From assembly GCA_903915225.1 (NCBI GenBank), contig CAIWSB010000048.1, positions 1-39,399 of the forward strand: a stretch of 39,399 bases of DNA, given 5' to 3'. The stretch comes from an uncultured Candidatus Woesearchaeota archaeon (GTDB lineage Archaea > Nanobdellota > Nanobdellia > Woesearchaeales > B29-G15). How positions within the stretch are numbered: the first letter of the stretch is position 1; each line of letters begins with the position of its first letter. Shown piece after piece: positions 4,532-29,823 of the stretch. A program made the position numbers and the translations under genes. A model generated the notes under the pieces. That model saw only the letters and a list, made by a program, of their open reading frames with translations, had not been told where the DNA came from and searched no databases.

Positions 4532-4624
4532 GGCAGCAACAATAATGGCGGCCGTCGTCGCTAAAGCTCCTCCAGGGACACCCCGTAGGGGGCATCCCCC
4601 GTCCCTGCGGCACCATTGTTGCTG
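4532..4624 (-). ncRNA. Copy 1 of recurrent intergenic structured element
   Basis: Minus-strand GCAGCAACAATGGTGCCGCAGGGACGGGGGATGCCCCCTACGGGGTGTCCCTGGAGGAGCTTTAGCGACGACGGCCGCCATTATTGTTGCTGCC. Terminal arms are complementary; it shares conserved blocks with 9230-9320 and 29676-29823. Confidence 0.75.
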
Positions 4625-4680
4625 CTCGCTGTTTTTATCACGCAACAAAATTTATATAGTTTGGACAAAGAGGTTTTAGC

Positions 4681-6985: not shown

Positions 6986-7587
6986 GTCTGAAGCAGCAGG
7001 TTGAGGCATTGTTGTTTTCTTCTGGCAGAAAAATGCTAGTTGAAGAGCTGGCAACAATACTTAAGGCTCAAAAACAATCTGTTCTGGAGGCATTGAGGTT
7101 GTTGCAGTCTGATTACAAGGGGAAGGAAACTGCGCTGATGATAATTGAAGAGGGAGATAACTGGAAGATTACAGTCCGCGAGGAGCATATGCATCTTGTC
7201 CGCAGCATTATTGTTGAGACTGAGCTCCCAAAGGCTGTGCTGGAAACACTGGCAATAATCGCATGGAGGGCTCCAATCCTCCAATCAGACATAATAAGGA
7301 TAAGGAACAACAAGGCTTACGAGCACATCCAAATGCTGGAGGATTCTGATTTCGTCGCCAGGGAAAAGTACGGCAGGTCATTCAAGCTCAAGCTAACCCC
7401 TAAATTCTTTGAGTACTTCGATGTTGACAACCTCAACAAGCTTAGGGAGCAGATGCAGCAGCAGCCGAAAGTTGAGGCTCCGACGCAACCTGAACAAAAT
7501 GTTGAAATTCCGCAGCCAAATAATGCAGAACCAAATCCTGCAAATGTGCAAGCAGAGCCTGAAGAGCAGCTGCCGAAATCAGAGTAG
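6982..7587 (+). CDS. scpB: Segregation and condensation protein B
   Basis: SLKQQVEALLFSSGRKMLVEELA...LPKAVLETLAIIAWRAPILQSDIIRIR is characteristic of ScpB. Confidence 0.88.
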   Translation: MSLKQQVEALLFSSGRKMLVEELATILKAQKQSVLEALRLLQSDYKGKETALMIIEEGDNWKITVREEHMHLVRSIIVETELPKAVLETLAIIAWRAPILQSDIIRIRNNKAYEHIQMLEDSDFVAREKYGRSFKLKLTPKFFEYFDVDNLNKLREQMQQQPKVEAPTQPEQNVEIPQPNNAEPNPANVQAEPEEQLPKSE

Positions 7588-8346
7588 AGAATATTGTGAG
7601 AGCGGAATTGCCTTTGGGTTCAAATCCTTAAGCTTTTTTTCTAGAATTGATAGGTGCGCCAGGCCGACAACTGCAATTATAGTTCCTTGGGCGCTCAGCT
7701 CGCGGATCCTTTTGGCCATGTGCTCGTCCCTTTCTGGGTTCAAGACCCGTTTTATTTCATCCACAGAATCGCCCGGGAGTATTTGATAAAGCTTGTCCAA
7801 TAGCCCGGGCTTTTGAACCAGCGGTGTGAGGCGCTCATACAACCTCCATCGCGGATAGGATTCCTCAACCTCTGCCTGGACCCGGGCAACATATTCCTCA
7901 ACCCCCATGTCCAATACGCTCTTGATTCCTTCAGCAACCCCTGGCTCTTCTGTCAAAAGTTTTTGGGCTTCCATCTTGAAAACCATTCTGGCCGCATCGG
8001 CGTTATTCCAATCGCCATTTGCCAGCGGGAGGTCTATATATTCCACCTGCACTTCCGGATGTACGCGGGCATGGCTCTTAATGGCCCTGTACTCAAACCC
8101 AATTGCTGCACTGCATTTCTTGCTAACCTCTAGGTAGGTTTCTTTTTGTTTGGGTGTGAGCTCAAGGTTGAGGCCATCAATCTGGTTGTCCAATTTCGTA
8201 CAATCCATCTCCTTCTCAAAACGTGACGCGCCTTCCGGGGATAGCTCTAGTGCTAGAATTGTTGGAGATAATTTATCTATTGCGCGATTTAGGCGTGACT
8301 CACCATAAAGGTCGGTGTGTATTGTACCAACTAGGCATATGCCCAT
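7579..8346 (-). CDS. TraB/TIKI-like domain protein (copy A)
   Basis: N-terminal VGTIHTD and C-terminal VGLAHLS motifs; similar along its length to the neighbouring 8356-9138 product. Confidence 0.72.
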   Translation of the reverse strand: MGICLVGTIHTDLYGESRLNRAIDKLSPTILALELSPEGASRFEKEMDCTKLDNQIDGLNLELTPKQKETYLEVSKKCSAAIGFEYRAIKSHARVHPEVQVEYIDLPLANGDWNNADAARMVFKMEAQKLLTEEPGVAEGIKSVLDMGVEEYVARVQAEVEESYPRWRLYERLTPLVQKPGLLDKLYQILPGDSVDEIKRVLNPERDEHMAKRIRELSAQGTIIAVVGLAHLSILEKKLKDLNPKAIPLSQYSLL

Positions 8347-8355
8347 GGGCTTCCC

Positions 8356-9138
8356 TCAAATTGATTTGTAATTAAGCAGCGATAGCGCTCGTGGATGCAG
8401 GTCTGAAAGCCTCTTTTTTATTCCCTTCATGTGGAGTAATCCGCAAACAACCAGGACCTTGCCCTGTGGGCTTAATTCACGTATCTTTTTGGCCATGTAC
8501 TCATCCCTATCCGGGCTGACTATTTTCTTAATCACGTCAACAGACTCCTTGGGGTATGTCCTGTTGAGCTGGTCCAGCACTCTCGGGCTCCTCATTAGCG
8601 GGGTCATAAGCCCCAGCAGGGGCTGCATCTTGTAAGCCATGTCCACCCTTTGCTGCAGGGTTGCAATAAAAGCATCCTTCCCCATCCGTGACATCATCTG
8701 ATCCACTCCAGCACGCACCTGGGGAGGGATATTCTTAACAGCATTATTCAATAGTTCCCCCATGGCCTTTTGGCCTGTCTCATCTCCCTCTCCAAACACA
8801 GATAGGTCAACATACTCAAGCCGGGTGCCCGGGTGGGCATCAACATATTTTTTTGGAGAATAATACTCAAAGCCAGAGGCCTTGTAAAGTTCTTTGGCAA
8901 TTCCGATTAAAGTGGGGTTTAGGGGCCCTTGACCAATATTTGCCTTCTTGATATCCTCCTCAAGCCGGGATTCCTTTTCCTTCTGGGTCGCAGGAAAGCC
9001 GCGGGTACGATCTTCTGAAAGCTCTATTGCGACAATGTCCGGAGAATACTTATCCAAAATATAATCTAGCCTCTTCTCACCATTAATATCCATGTGCACA
9101 GTGCCAACAATGCATATCTTGTTTGCCATTCCACCCAC
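8356..9138 (-). CDS. TraB/TIKI-like domain protein (copy B)
   Basis: VGTVHMD and CGLLHMK motifs; tandem paralogue of 7579-8346 (shared ..SP.RD.(H/Y)MAK.IRELS.QG motif). Likely start MANKICIVGTVH. Confidence 0.72.
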   Translation of the reverse strand: MGGMANKICIVGTVHMDINGEKRLDYILDKYSPDIVAIELSEDRTRGFPATQKEKESRLEEDIKKANIGQGPLNPTLIGIAKELYKASGFEYYSPKKYVDAHPGTRLEYVDLSVFGEGDETGQKAMGELLNNAVKNIPPQVRAGVDQMMSRMGKDAFIATLQQRVDMAYKMQPLLGLMTPLMRSPRVLDQLNRTYPKESVDVIKKIVSPDRDEYMAKKIRELSPQGKVLVVCGLLHMKGIKKRLSDLHPRALSLLNYKSI

Positions 9139-9229: not shown

Positions 9230-9320
9230 GCAGCAACAATGGCGCCGCCCGGGCGGGGGCCGGCCCCGGGGTGCCCCGGGAGGAGCAATAGCGACGACGA
9301 CCGCCATTATTGTTGCTGCC
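9230..9320 (+). ncRNA. Copy 2 of recurrent intergenic structured element
   Basis: GCAGCAACAATGGCGCCGCCCGGGCGGGGGCCGGCCCCGGGGTGCCCCGGGAGGAGCAATAGCGACGACGACCGCCATTATTGTTGCTGCC; same layout as copies 1 and 3. Confidence 0.75.
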
Positions 9321-9406
9321 TTTAGAATAAAATGCTTTTTCATTTTTTCTTACCGCCAACTGAATCAAAAGATTAATAAACAATTTATCCTCCTTCCTGG
9401 CTCGAC

Positions 9407-11839
9407 ATGGCAGAGATACTGAAAGACCGGCTTATTGAGGACGAGATGCGGGAATCCTACCTGGATTACAGCATGTCTGTCATAGTTGGCAGGGCCTTGC
9501 CAGACCTGCGGGATGGCCTCAAGCCAGTGCACAGGCGAATCCTTTTTGCTATGTATGAAATGGGGCTTGTGCCTGAAAAGCCATTCAAGAAAGCAGCAAG
9601 GGTTGTGGGTGAGGTGCTGGGTAAATTCCATCCACATGGTGACCTTGCGGTTTATGACAGCCTGGTTCGCATGGCTCAGGAATTCTCACTAAGATATCCG
9701 CTAGTTAAGGGCCAGGGCAATTTTGGAAGCATTGATGGGGACAACGCAGCAGCAATGAGGTACACTGAAGTCAAGCTTGCCAAGCCAGCAATTGAGATTT
9801 TGGAAAACTTGGACCAGGACACGGTTGATTTTACGCCCAACTTTGACAACTCACTAAATGAGCCGGTTGTGCTGCCCAGCAGGCTGCCAAACATGATTAT
9901 CAATGGCGGCTCGGGAATTGCAGTGGGGATGGCAACCAACATACCGCCGCACAATCTCCGCGAGGCATGCAATGCAATTATTGCTTACATTGATAATCCT
10001 GAAATCGGTGTTGAGGAGATTCTTGCAATAATGCCTGGCCCTGACTTCCCAACAGGTGGCGAGGTTTATGGGGATGAGGGAATACGGCACGCCTACATGA
10101 GCGGGCGCGGCAAGATACTTGTTCGGAGTAAGACCCGTATTGAAACAGACAAGAACAATGAGCCCAAGGCAATAATTGTTGAGGAAATCCCCTACATGGT
10201 GAACAAGACCATGCTCATTGAGGAGATATCCAATTGCGTCAAGGGGGATGTCATCAAGCAGATTTCTGGGCTGAACGACGAGTCTGACAGGGAGGGCATG
10301 CGACTTGTCATATCCTTGAAGCGCGGAACAGACCCCGAAGTTGTGCTCAACCAACTGTATACTCACACCCATTTGCAGACCACTTTTGGGATAAATATGC
10401 TGGGTGTTATCCAGAACCGCCCAAAGACAGTCAACATGCGTGGGCTTTTTGAAATCTACGTGCAGCACCGGCTGGAAATAATTAGGCGGCGCTCGCAGTT
10501 TGAATACGTGAAATCAAAGGAGAGGATTCACATACTTGAGGGGCTTAGGATTGCCCTGAAGAATATTGATGCAATAATCAAGCTCATCAAGGGCTCGGAA
10601 TCACCAAAGGAGGCTGCTGTCGGGCTCATGCAGGGCTATTCCCTTTCTGACAAGCAGGCTCAGGCAATTCTTGAGATGAGGCTCTCCAGGCTCACTGCAC
10701 TTGAGACTAGTGCAATTGAGAAGGAGCACCAGGAATTGCTAAACAGGATTATTGAGCTTGAGGCAATTTTAGCATCTAGGGAAAAGCAGCTTGGGATAAT
10801 TAAGGATGAGCTCAGGCTCTTGGTGGATAAGTATGGGGACAATCGCCGCACGAAAATAACAGCTGGCTCGTTCATGGATTCAGAAATAGACTATGAAGAC
10901 TTGATTGAAGAGGCAGCTGTTGTGGTGACGCTTAGCCATAACGGCTACATAAAACGCACACTTTTGGATGTTTACAGAAGCCAAGGCCGCGGGGGCCGCG
11001 GGGTAACAGCCGGAAAGCTGCATGAGGATGACTTCATGGAAAAGGTGTTTGTCTGCTCAACCCATTCCACAATCCTGTGCTTTTCAAACAAGGGCAAGCT
11101 CTACTGGCTGAAGGGCTACCGCATCCCAGAATCCTCAAGGATTGCCCAGGGCACGCATGTGAGGAACCTGTTGCAATTAGATGAAGGTGAAATCATCAAT
11201 GCATTGATTCCAATCAAGGAGTTTGAATCAGAGCAGTACCTGAATTTCATAACAAAACTGGGCAAGATAAAGAAAACCACCCTTGCCGCTTACTCAAACC
11301 CCAGGAAAGGGGGAATTATTGCAATCTCACTTGGTGAGAAAGATGAGGTTGTGGCTGTCCTACTTACCACGGGACATAATGAGCTAATGGTTGCCTCTGC
11401 AGCGGGCAAGGCAATACGGTTCAAGGAAGAAGAAGCCAGACCTTTGGGGAGAAATGCAGAGGGCATGCGGGCAATCCGCCTCGCCTCAAATGATTCAGTT
11501 GTGGGGGCTGTTGTTGTGCACGAGAACAAGACATTGCTCACTGTGACTGCAAATGGCTTCGGTAAACGCTCCCCGTTCTCAGATTATTCAATTACCCATC
11601 GCGGTGGCCAAGGTGTTATTAACATAAAGACAAGCGATAGAAATGGCCCGGTTATTGGTGTAAAGGAGGTTGAGGACAAGGATGAGGTAATGATTGTCTC
11701 CTCCGGTGGGATTATGATAAGGATGCCCGCGCAAACCATTTCCACAATAGGCAGGAACACCCAGGGTGTGAGGCTGATGAGGCTCGAGGATGGGAAACGG
11801 GTCGCAGCAGTCGGCAGGGTGGAAGAACTTGAGGAGTGA
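9407..11839 (+). CDS. gyrA: DNA gyrase subunit A
   Basis: [35 protein letters not shown], catalytic AAMRYTE, GyrA-box-like QGRGGRG, and six C-terminal blade repeats; full length at 810 aa. Confidence 0.95.
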
Positions 11840-26340: not shown

Positions 26341-26465
26341 GTTCCACATGAAATCGTGGGGGTTACCTCTCTGTAAAATATACATCCTAAAACCGTATCA
26401 TTTATAAATGAGCGGGGATTCTTATTTTTAAACTCCTTATAAAGAGTAGATTGGGGGGATATGAC

Positions 26466-27005
26466 ATGGCTAAACGTGAAATTGAAATAGTAAACATTGT
26501 TGTGAGCTCTTCGCTTGAGAAGAAGATCCCACTCGAGAAAATGGCAGCCAGTTTGCCCAATACAGAATACAACCCCGAGCAGTTCCCCGGGCTGGTGCTC
26601 AGGATAAAAGAACCCAGGACCTCGGCGTTGATCTTTAACTCGGGCAAGATTGTGTGCACGGGCGCACGCTCAATTGAGATGGTTGAGGAGTCAATCCAGA
26701 AGATAATTGAGAGCCTCAAGAAGATAAACATCCATGTGGAGATTAAGCCCAAGATTGAAGTGCAGAACATTGTTGCATCAGGTAGTATTGGGATGAAACT
26801 CAACCTGAACACGCTGGCTATTAAGCTGAGAAACACAGAGTACGAACCGGAACAGTTCCCGGGGCTGGTGTACAAGCTCAAGGGCACGAACGCGACGTTC
26901 CTGCTATTCACAAATGGCAAGATTGTCTGCACCGGCACAAGGAGCCGGGAAGCTGTGGACAAGGCAGTTGAGATGCTCATCGAAAACCTCAAGAGTGTTT
27001 CGTAA
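26466..27005 (+). CDS. tbp: TATA-box binding protein
   Basis: Two repeats with EYNPEQFPGLVLRI...SGKIVCTGARS and EYEPEQFPGLVYKL...NGKIVCTGTRS; likely start MAKREIEIVNIV. Confidence 0.95.
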   Translation: MAKREIEIVNIVVSSSLEKKIPLEKMAASLPNTEYNPEQFPGLVLRIKEPRTSALIFNSGKIVCTGARSIEMVEESIQKIIESLKKINIHVEIKPKIEVQNIVASGSIGMKLNLNTLAIKLRNTEYEPEQFPGLVYKLKGTNATFLLFTNGKIVCTGTRSREAVDKAVEMLIENLKSVS

Positions 27006-29675: not shown

Positions 29676-29823
29676 GCAGCAGCAATGGCGCAGGTCTGAC
29701 GGGGGATGTCCCGAGGTTTCCGATGGACACCAGAGATTCAGAGAATTTCTATGTCTCTGAGTGCCCCCGCGGGGTGCCAGACGAGGAGCGTTAGCTCCGA
29801 CTGCCGCCATTATTGTTGCTGCC
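29676..29823 (+). ncRNA. Copy 3 of recurrent intergenic structured element (with internal hairpin insertion)
   Basis: GCAGCAGCAATGGCGCAGGTCTGACGGGGGATGTCCC...CCCCCGCGGGGTGCCAGACGAGGAGCGTTAGCTCCGACTGCCGCCATTATTGTTGCTGCC; same terminal arms and core blocks as copies 1 and 2. Confidence 0.75.

Follow-up and report, generated by a model that had tools for sequence, protein, structure and literature searches.

The structured element that precedes gyrA in this archaeal contig is almost certainly one copy of a dispersed, structure-conserved repeat family specific to its order. The window, i.e. the whole stretch of 39,399 nucleotides that was analysed, derives from an uncultured Candidatus Woesearchaeota archaeon. 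A sequence-only reading had described a repeated structured element near 9230-9320 in plus orientation with intact arms and an inner stem, and such an element was indeed found at 9230-9319 between two divergent neighbours, a TraB/PrgY-family gene and gyrA. Its outer arms are GCAGCAACAA and TTGTTGCTGC, its inner stem is CCCGGGC / GCCCCGG(G) and its apical sequence is GGGGGCCGGCCCCGGGG, followed by CTTTAGAATAAAATGCTTTTTCATTTTTTC. The copy scores 87.7 bits with the covariance model of the family (E 1.7e-17, own genome), and its fold as single-strand DNA has a z of -3.2 against dinucleotide shuffles; with its recurrence in the window and in the genome, the element is far beyond chance. Because it is devoid of the 3-nt TNC apical loop which nearly all other copies have, it is a partly degenerate member and not the archetype of the family. 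The features of the window are:

4533-4625, minus strand: element copy 1, typical form
8356-9138, minus strand: TraB/PrgY-family gene, divergent neighbour of gyrA
9230-9319, plus strand: element copy 2, partly degenerate, covariance-model match
9230-9239, plus strand: outer stem P1, 5' arm GCAGCAACAA, partner 9310-9319
9240-9244, plus strand: inner part of P1, TGGCG, partner CGCCA at 9302-9306
9248-9254, plus strand: stem P2, 5' arm CCCGGGC, partner GCCCCGG at 9273-9279
9255-9259, plus strand: first G block, which the tip mirror rule suggests as the third strand of a triplex
9264-9271, plus strand: CCCCGGGG, comprising the C block and the second G block without the intervening TNC loop
9280-9297, plus strand: region of arm P3, GAGGAGCAATAGCGACGA, where GGAG/CGAC permits tandem G.A pairs
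9307-9309, plus strand: 3-nt bulge TTA, constant in length and variable in sequence across copies
9310-9319, plus strand: outer stem P1, 3' arm TTGTTGCTGC
9407-11839, plus strand: gyrA (Pfam DNA_topoisoIV, 2.5e-157), starting 87 nt beyond the element
29676-29822, plus strand: element copy 3, with extra hairpins within the apical loop

With a covariance model built from 14 own-genome copies, 46 copies of 80-160 nt were found in the genome, three of them in the window. The assembly comprises 1.69 Mb in 116 contigs, with an estimated completeness of 97%. The exact-arm pattern occurs at 17 places in the own genome and at 0 in the backwards control, and it had no match in viral contigs. Of the 287 genomes sampled within its order, 69 match the model at E ≤ 0.01 (best E beyond the own genome 1.2e-16); the matching genomes often hold at least 10 copies, and these copy numbers are lower bounds because the wide searches scored 11-15 candidates per genome. 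Throughout, the genomes are assemblies, several of them fragmented. A phylum-wide sample yielded 44 matching genomes out of 371, all labelled as same order, and none of the matches listed for this sample lies outside the order. One carrier, Nanoarchaeota archaeon isolate MM_PC_MetaG.mb.67 (C9:68677-68778 and C42:8316-8402), is named under Nanobdellota in the taxonomy files and appears to belong to the order of the window genome, as the same matches recur under G066 with the label "same order". The covariance-model search gave no copy in either of the two same-genus genomes, and the distribution of the family is wide but patchy. A known RNA family was rejected, as no score above the gathering threshold was obtained for the element in Rfam 15. 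No description of the repeats was found in the open-access literature, and the family is apparently undescribed to date.

The copies share a branched fold. Stem P1 has ten outer pairs, followed by a bulge of 3 nt on the 3' side, TGGCG/CGCCA and three more pairs. It encloses the 7-bp stem P2, whose sequence is almost free, and a second hairpin, P3, which occurs in two main types in the own genome. In the wider set, 21 copies have tandem G.A/A.G pairs instead of two Watson-Crick pairs of P2, and such tandem pairs are found again in P3. A kink-turn in P1 was rejected, because the 3-nt bulge is present but no G.A pairs follow it. Among the own-genome copies, two-sided changes occur at six of the seven P2 pairs. 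A set of 105 copies taken from other genomes has standard pairs in 94.2% of the cells and two-sided changes in 787 cells compared with 213 in shuffles, figures that are flattered by the fitting of this alignment to the covariance model; controls with slid partners reached pairing of 31-63% or less, and 36-48% in the 105 copies. The covariation effect is far larger than this fitting bias. When the plain ungapped outer ten bases were counted in those 100 copies that have seven or more Watson-Crick pairs there, 944 of 1,000 cells were Watson-Crick. The fold is thus under strong constraint, and this complicated fold, more than a sequence, is preserved across one archaeal order.

Several further features of the fold were observed. 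The 5' arm of P1 has a nearly fixed C at every third base (positions 5, 8 and often 2), matched by G on the 3' arm; the P1 sequences otherwise differ widely among copies (alignment A5). In other genomes P1 is often lengthened by pairs of A-runs with T-runs. A near-perfect core without a matching P1 was seen at L011:1502-1593, L013:1500-1576, L014:1489-1577, L017:1491-1580 and L021:1416-1552; either the core exists or moves alone, or P1 decays first. A few own-genome copies have extra hairpins put into the apical loop, and the insertion point is common to window 29676-29822, L029:1411-1530 and L039:1002-1124. These hairpins sit in the loop that joins the first G block to the C block, a modular growth point. 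The flank consensus in the own genome, CGA before the element and C[A/T]TCAA after it, may belong to the unit or represent its target site.

The most conserved portion of the element is the P2 tip, which reads G-rich block, GWYGN, C-rich block, TNC, G-rich block, T. Blocks 2 and 3 pair with each other (CTCC/GGAG, TCCC/GGGA, GCCC/GGGC), and block 1 is the mirror image of block 3 (GAGG/GGAG, AGGG/GGGA, TGGG/GGGC). In the 105 other-genome copies A31 goes with A95-T86 (12/12 vs 1/93, p=7e-15), A30 with A96 (8/15 vs 1/90, p=2e-7) and T30 with C96-G85. The third block differs from GGGG in 27 copies, 21 of which fit the mirror rule fully compared with a mean of 2.4 and a maximum of 10 when first blocks are permuted; these fitting copies come from 13 genomes, whose kinship lowers the independent number. 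The rule is broken in the own-genome copies L006, L008, L019, L036 and L049. Read as a code, the mirror rule is that of an antiparallel purine-motif triplex with the triads G.GC and A.AT, and T.CG is an accepted triad for a pyrimidine interruption. The P2 tip hence seems to encode a three-stranded core. A G-quadruplex was rejected, because the G-runs are interrupted in GAGGG/AGGGG variants and the C block varies along with them. A simple alternative tip hairpin was rejected as well, because A30-T85/A96 and T30-G85/C96 match no Watson-Crick register; A31 is able to pair with T86 in one register. The strand order of the tip is third strand, C block (pyrimidine), G block (purine), which lies outside the four classes of PMC4666352, and the loop would therefore need to pass across the short triplex.

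The placement of the copies shows no linkage to particular genes. Nearly all of the 46 own-genome copies lie in spacers between called genes, beside unrelated genes. According to a simple home-made gene caller, the 38 own-genome copies with both neighbours are found in 12 divergent, 20 co-directional and 6 convergent spacers, and the picture in other genomes is similar (convergent 7/66; 3 sites within called reading frames). Neither in the own nor in other genomes was a preference for gene orientation or gene distance seen. The earlier view that the element lies between divergent genes holds for the 9230-9319 copy and fails as a rule, copy 3 (29676-29822) being situated between co-directional genes. 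Small RNA or 5'-UTR roles, which the sequence-only reading had also considered, have no positional support. Upstream of gyrA, the 87 nt beyond the element contain the A/T-rich stretch ATTAATAAACAATTTA (9372-9387), which could be the gyrA promoter and would leave the element outside it. The TraB/PrgY/gumN-family genes near gyrA are adjacent and apparently form a tandem pair (7579-8346 and 8356-9138, both on the minus strand). A TATA-binding-protein-like reading frame was read from the sequence near 26451-27005 and speaks for an archaeal origin of the DNA. In the same-genus genome G002, gyrA (L060/L061, G002:C6:53843-57547) has an open frame of 1240 aa with an in-frame interruption of ~1.3 kb near residue 117-120 that looks like an intein.

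A strong palindrome located 87 nt ahead of the start of gyrA invites the idea of a supercoiling-sensitive cruciform controlling gyrA, which the sequence-only reading had proposed together with a comparison of sister genomes. That comparison turned out in favour of a MITE-like repeat: the element is absent before gyrA in 2/2 same-genus genomes, and the gene directly in front of gyrA in both is scpB-like, as judged from its translation. Because the same-genus gyrA genes are without the element and the placement of copies is mixed, the supercoiling idea is unsupported; the other copies adjoin unrelated genes, and the copy before gyrA is itself partly degenerate. A two-strand cruciform also does not explain the one-strand features described below. 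We therefore rejected a gyrA-specific regulator, consider control of gyrA by a cruciform extremely improbable and regard the placement before gyrA as incidental. A role between genes as transcription terminator or topological insulator is in keeping with the mostly intergenic location and with the A-run/T-run extensions of P1 in other genomes. The terminator reading was rejected on the ground that convergent spacers are the rarest context both in the own genome (6/38) and elsewhere (7/66), and the same-genus genomes do without the element; we hold a terminator or insulator to be very unlikely.

Two other explanations concern the strand that does the work and the force that preserves it. A structured RNA family, with the plus strand folded as RNA in dispersed small RNAs or in leader or trailer modules of mRNA, would account for the strong covariation. 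Prediction as RNA gives the plus strand a higher stability than the minus strand in 90/105 and 43/46 copies, and there is more G.T than A.C at pairs 15-175 and 21-106; these observations speak for RNA, or failing that for a single working strand. However, wobble pairs are scarce for an RNA (WC 3074, GT 116, AC 36; wobble about 1.8% in P1), copies show neither a preferred orientation nor a preferred distance relative to genes, Rfam gives no match, and the tip mirror corresponds to a purine-motif code. Purine-motif triplexes are said to be unable to form in RNA (PMC4666352), an exclusion that is not general where an RNA strand binds a DNA duplex (PMC7515735). The scarce wobble pairs, the purine code and the absent orientation bias are points for DNA. 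Both lines of evidence agree in that one strand is the working form, and we prefer single-stranded DNA, which we take to be about twice as probable as RNA; the RNA family as such has a small but real chance of being correct. Slightly less credible to us, and likewise improbable, is that the copies are inert repeats in which hairpin template switching during replication and conversion between copies match arms and blocks, with no functional selection. The near-perfect Watson-Crick arms and the existence of P1-less copies are compatible with this. At orthologous loci of G112 and G054 the three tip blocks change together with P1 nearly identical; this concerted change is in line with the triplex code of the tip, and conversion from another copy could also give it. 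Arm copying, however, yields inverted repeats and not the mirror of blocks 1 and 3, and the invariant tip bases together with the fixed bulge length suggest recognition.

The repeats also occur in pairs. In other genomes, close pairs are arranged head-to-head in 14/14 cases, some with a common 5' arm, and doublets of ~200 nt recur at unrelated loci. The similarity of these doublets stops at the end of the element, which shows dispersal as a unit. Some doublets adjoin tRNA genes (Rfam tRNA match in L112:1786-1898; tRNA-like sequence in the downstream flank of L130/L171). No clean target-site duplication was visible in the flanks examined, and in an empty-site comparison for a doublet locus the flanks were not found in the related genome. 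The search for a partner enzyme covered Y1 transposases only: this family was not found in the own genome, and the element lies near only 1 of 20 Y1 loci checked. Co-occurrence of Y1 transposases and the element across genomes is loose (odds ratio 3.3, uncorrected for genome size or kinship). Due to the missing linkage and the absence of the family from the own genome, a RAYT/Y1 transposase partner was rejected.

The family resembles several known systems and is identical to none of those compared. ERIC and BOX are imperfect intergenic palindromes of ~100-150 nt that are modular and carry inserted hairpins, like the repeat described here; their sequence and fold are presumably unrelated, and here the stem sequence is nearly free with pairing kept. 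Integron attC sites and the ends of IS200/IS605 elements likewise conserve structure more than sequence and serve as substrates in the form of folded single-stranded DNA with extrahelical bases. These differ from the repeats here, for which head-to-head doublets were seen and neither a cassette array nor a linked integrase or tnpA. As in MITEs, the units are short, multi-copy, non-coding and patchy, with the P1 arms as terminal inverted repeats; unlike MITEs they show a conserved internal branched fold. No target duplication was visible in the flanks examined, and the Y1 search gave no autonomous partner. With the REP/BIME elements and their RAYT (TnpA-REP) proteins (PMC3733652, PMC2817692) the family shares many intergenic palindromic copies, an imperfect bulged stem and inverted doublets that disperse as units. 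REP/BIME sequences are 20-40 bp long, have a GTAG/CGTC tag and are associated with a RAYT/Y1 transposase, whereas the present repeats measure 80-160 nt, are branched and confined to an archaeal order, show CGA / C[AT]TCAA without such a tag in their flanks, and have no linked Y1 transposase. The intrastrand triplex repeats TM_ECO and BoxC (PMC4666352) are similarly dispersed, G/C-rich and based on a purine-motif intrastrand triplex code. TM_ECO classes I/II have the order third-purine-pyrimidine or pyrimidine-purine-third and not third-pyrimidine-purine as here, where only about four triads are present, embedded in a junction and supported by covariation.

We propose that the working form of the repeat would be a folded single strand of DNA, in which stem P1, with the bulge of 3 nt, opens into a junction carrying the arms P2 and P3. 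P2 may be capped by a small intrastrand triplex in the cell, with a purine third strand running antiparallel on a purine-pyrimidine hairpin, and P3 would often contain tandem G.A pairs. A recombinase or transposase acting in trans might read this folded strand and insert copies of single units, and of head-to-head doublets of ~200 nt, into intergenic gaps. Taken as a whole, a REP/BIME- or MITE-like Nanobdellota repeat that works as folded single-stranded DNA and is moved in trans by an enzyme is a tentative reading, in which our doubt slightly outweighs our confidence. The more demanding version, namely a mobile family with a branched single-stranded fold, a genuine triplex cap, coevolution of the triads G.GC, A.AT and T.CG over many genera and a new enzyme, we consider unlikely, though well within reach.

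In conclusion, hairpins located before interesting genes, here gyrA, may be copies of a repeat and not regulators. Natural triplex DNA has so far mostly been inferred from sequence motifs; if our reading of the tip is true, coevolution of three positions in many genomes would argue, on evolutionary grounds, that such a structure is used. The family provides an order of mostly uncultured, small-genome archaea with a REP/MITE-like element of its own, and it points to an enzyme that handles folded DNA.
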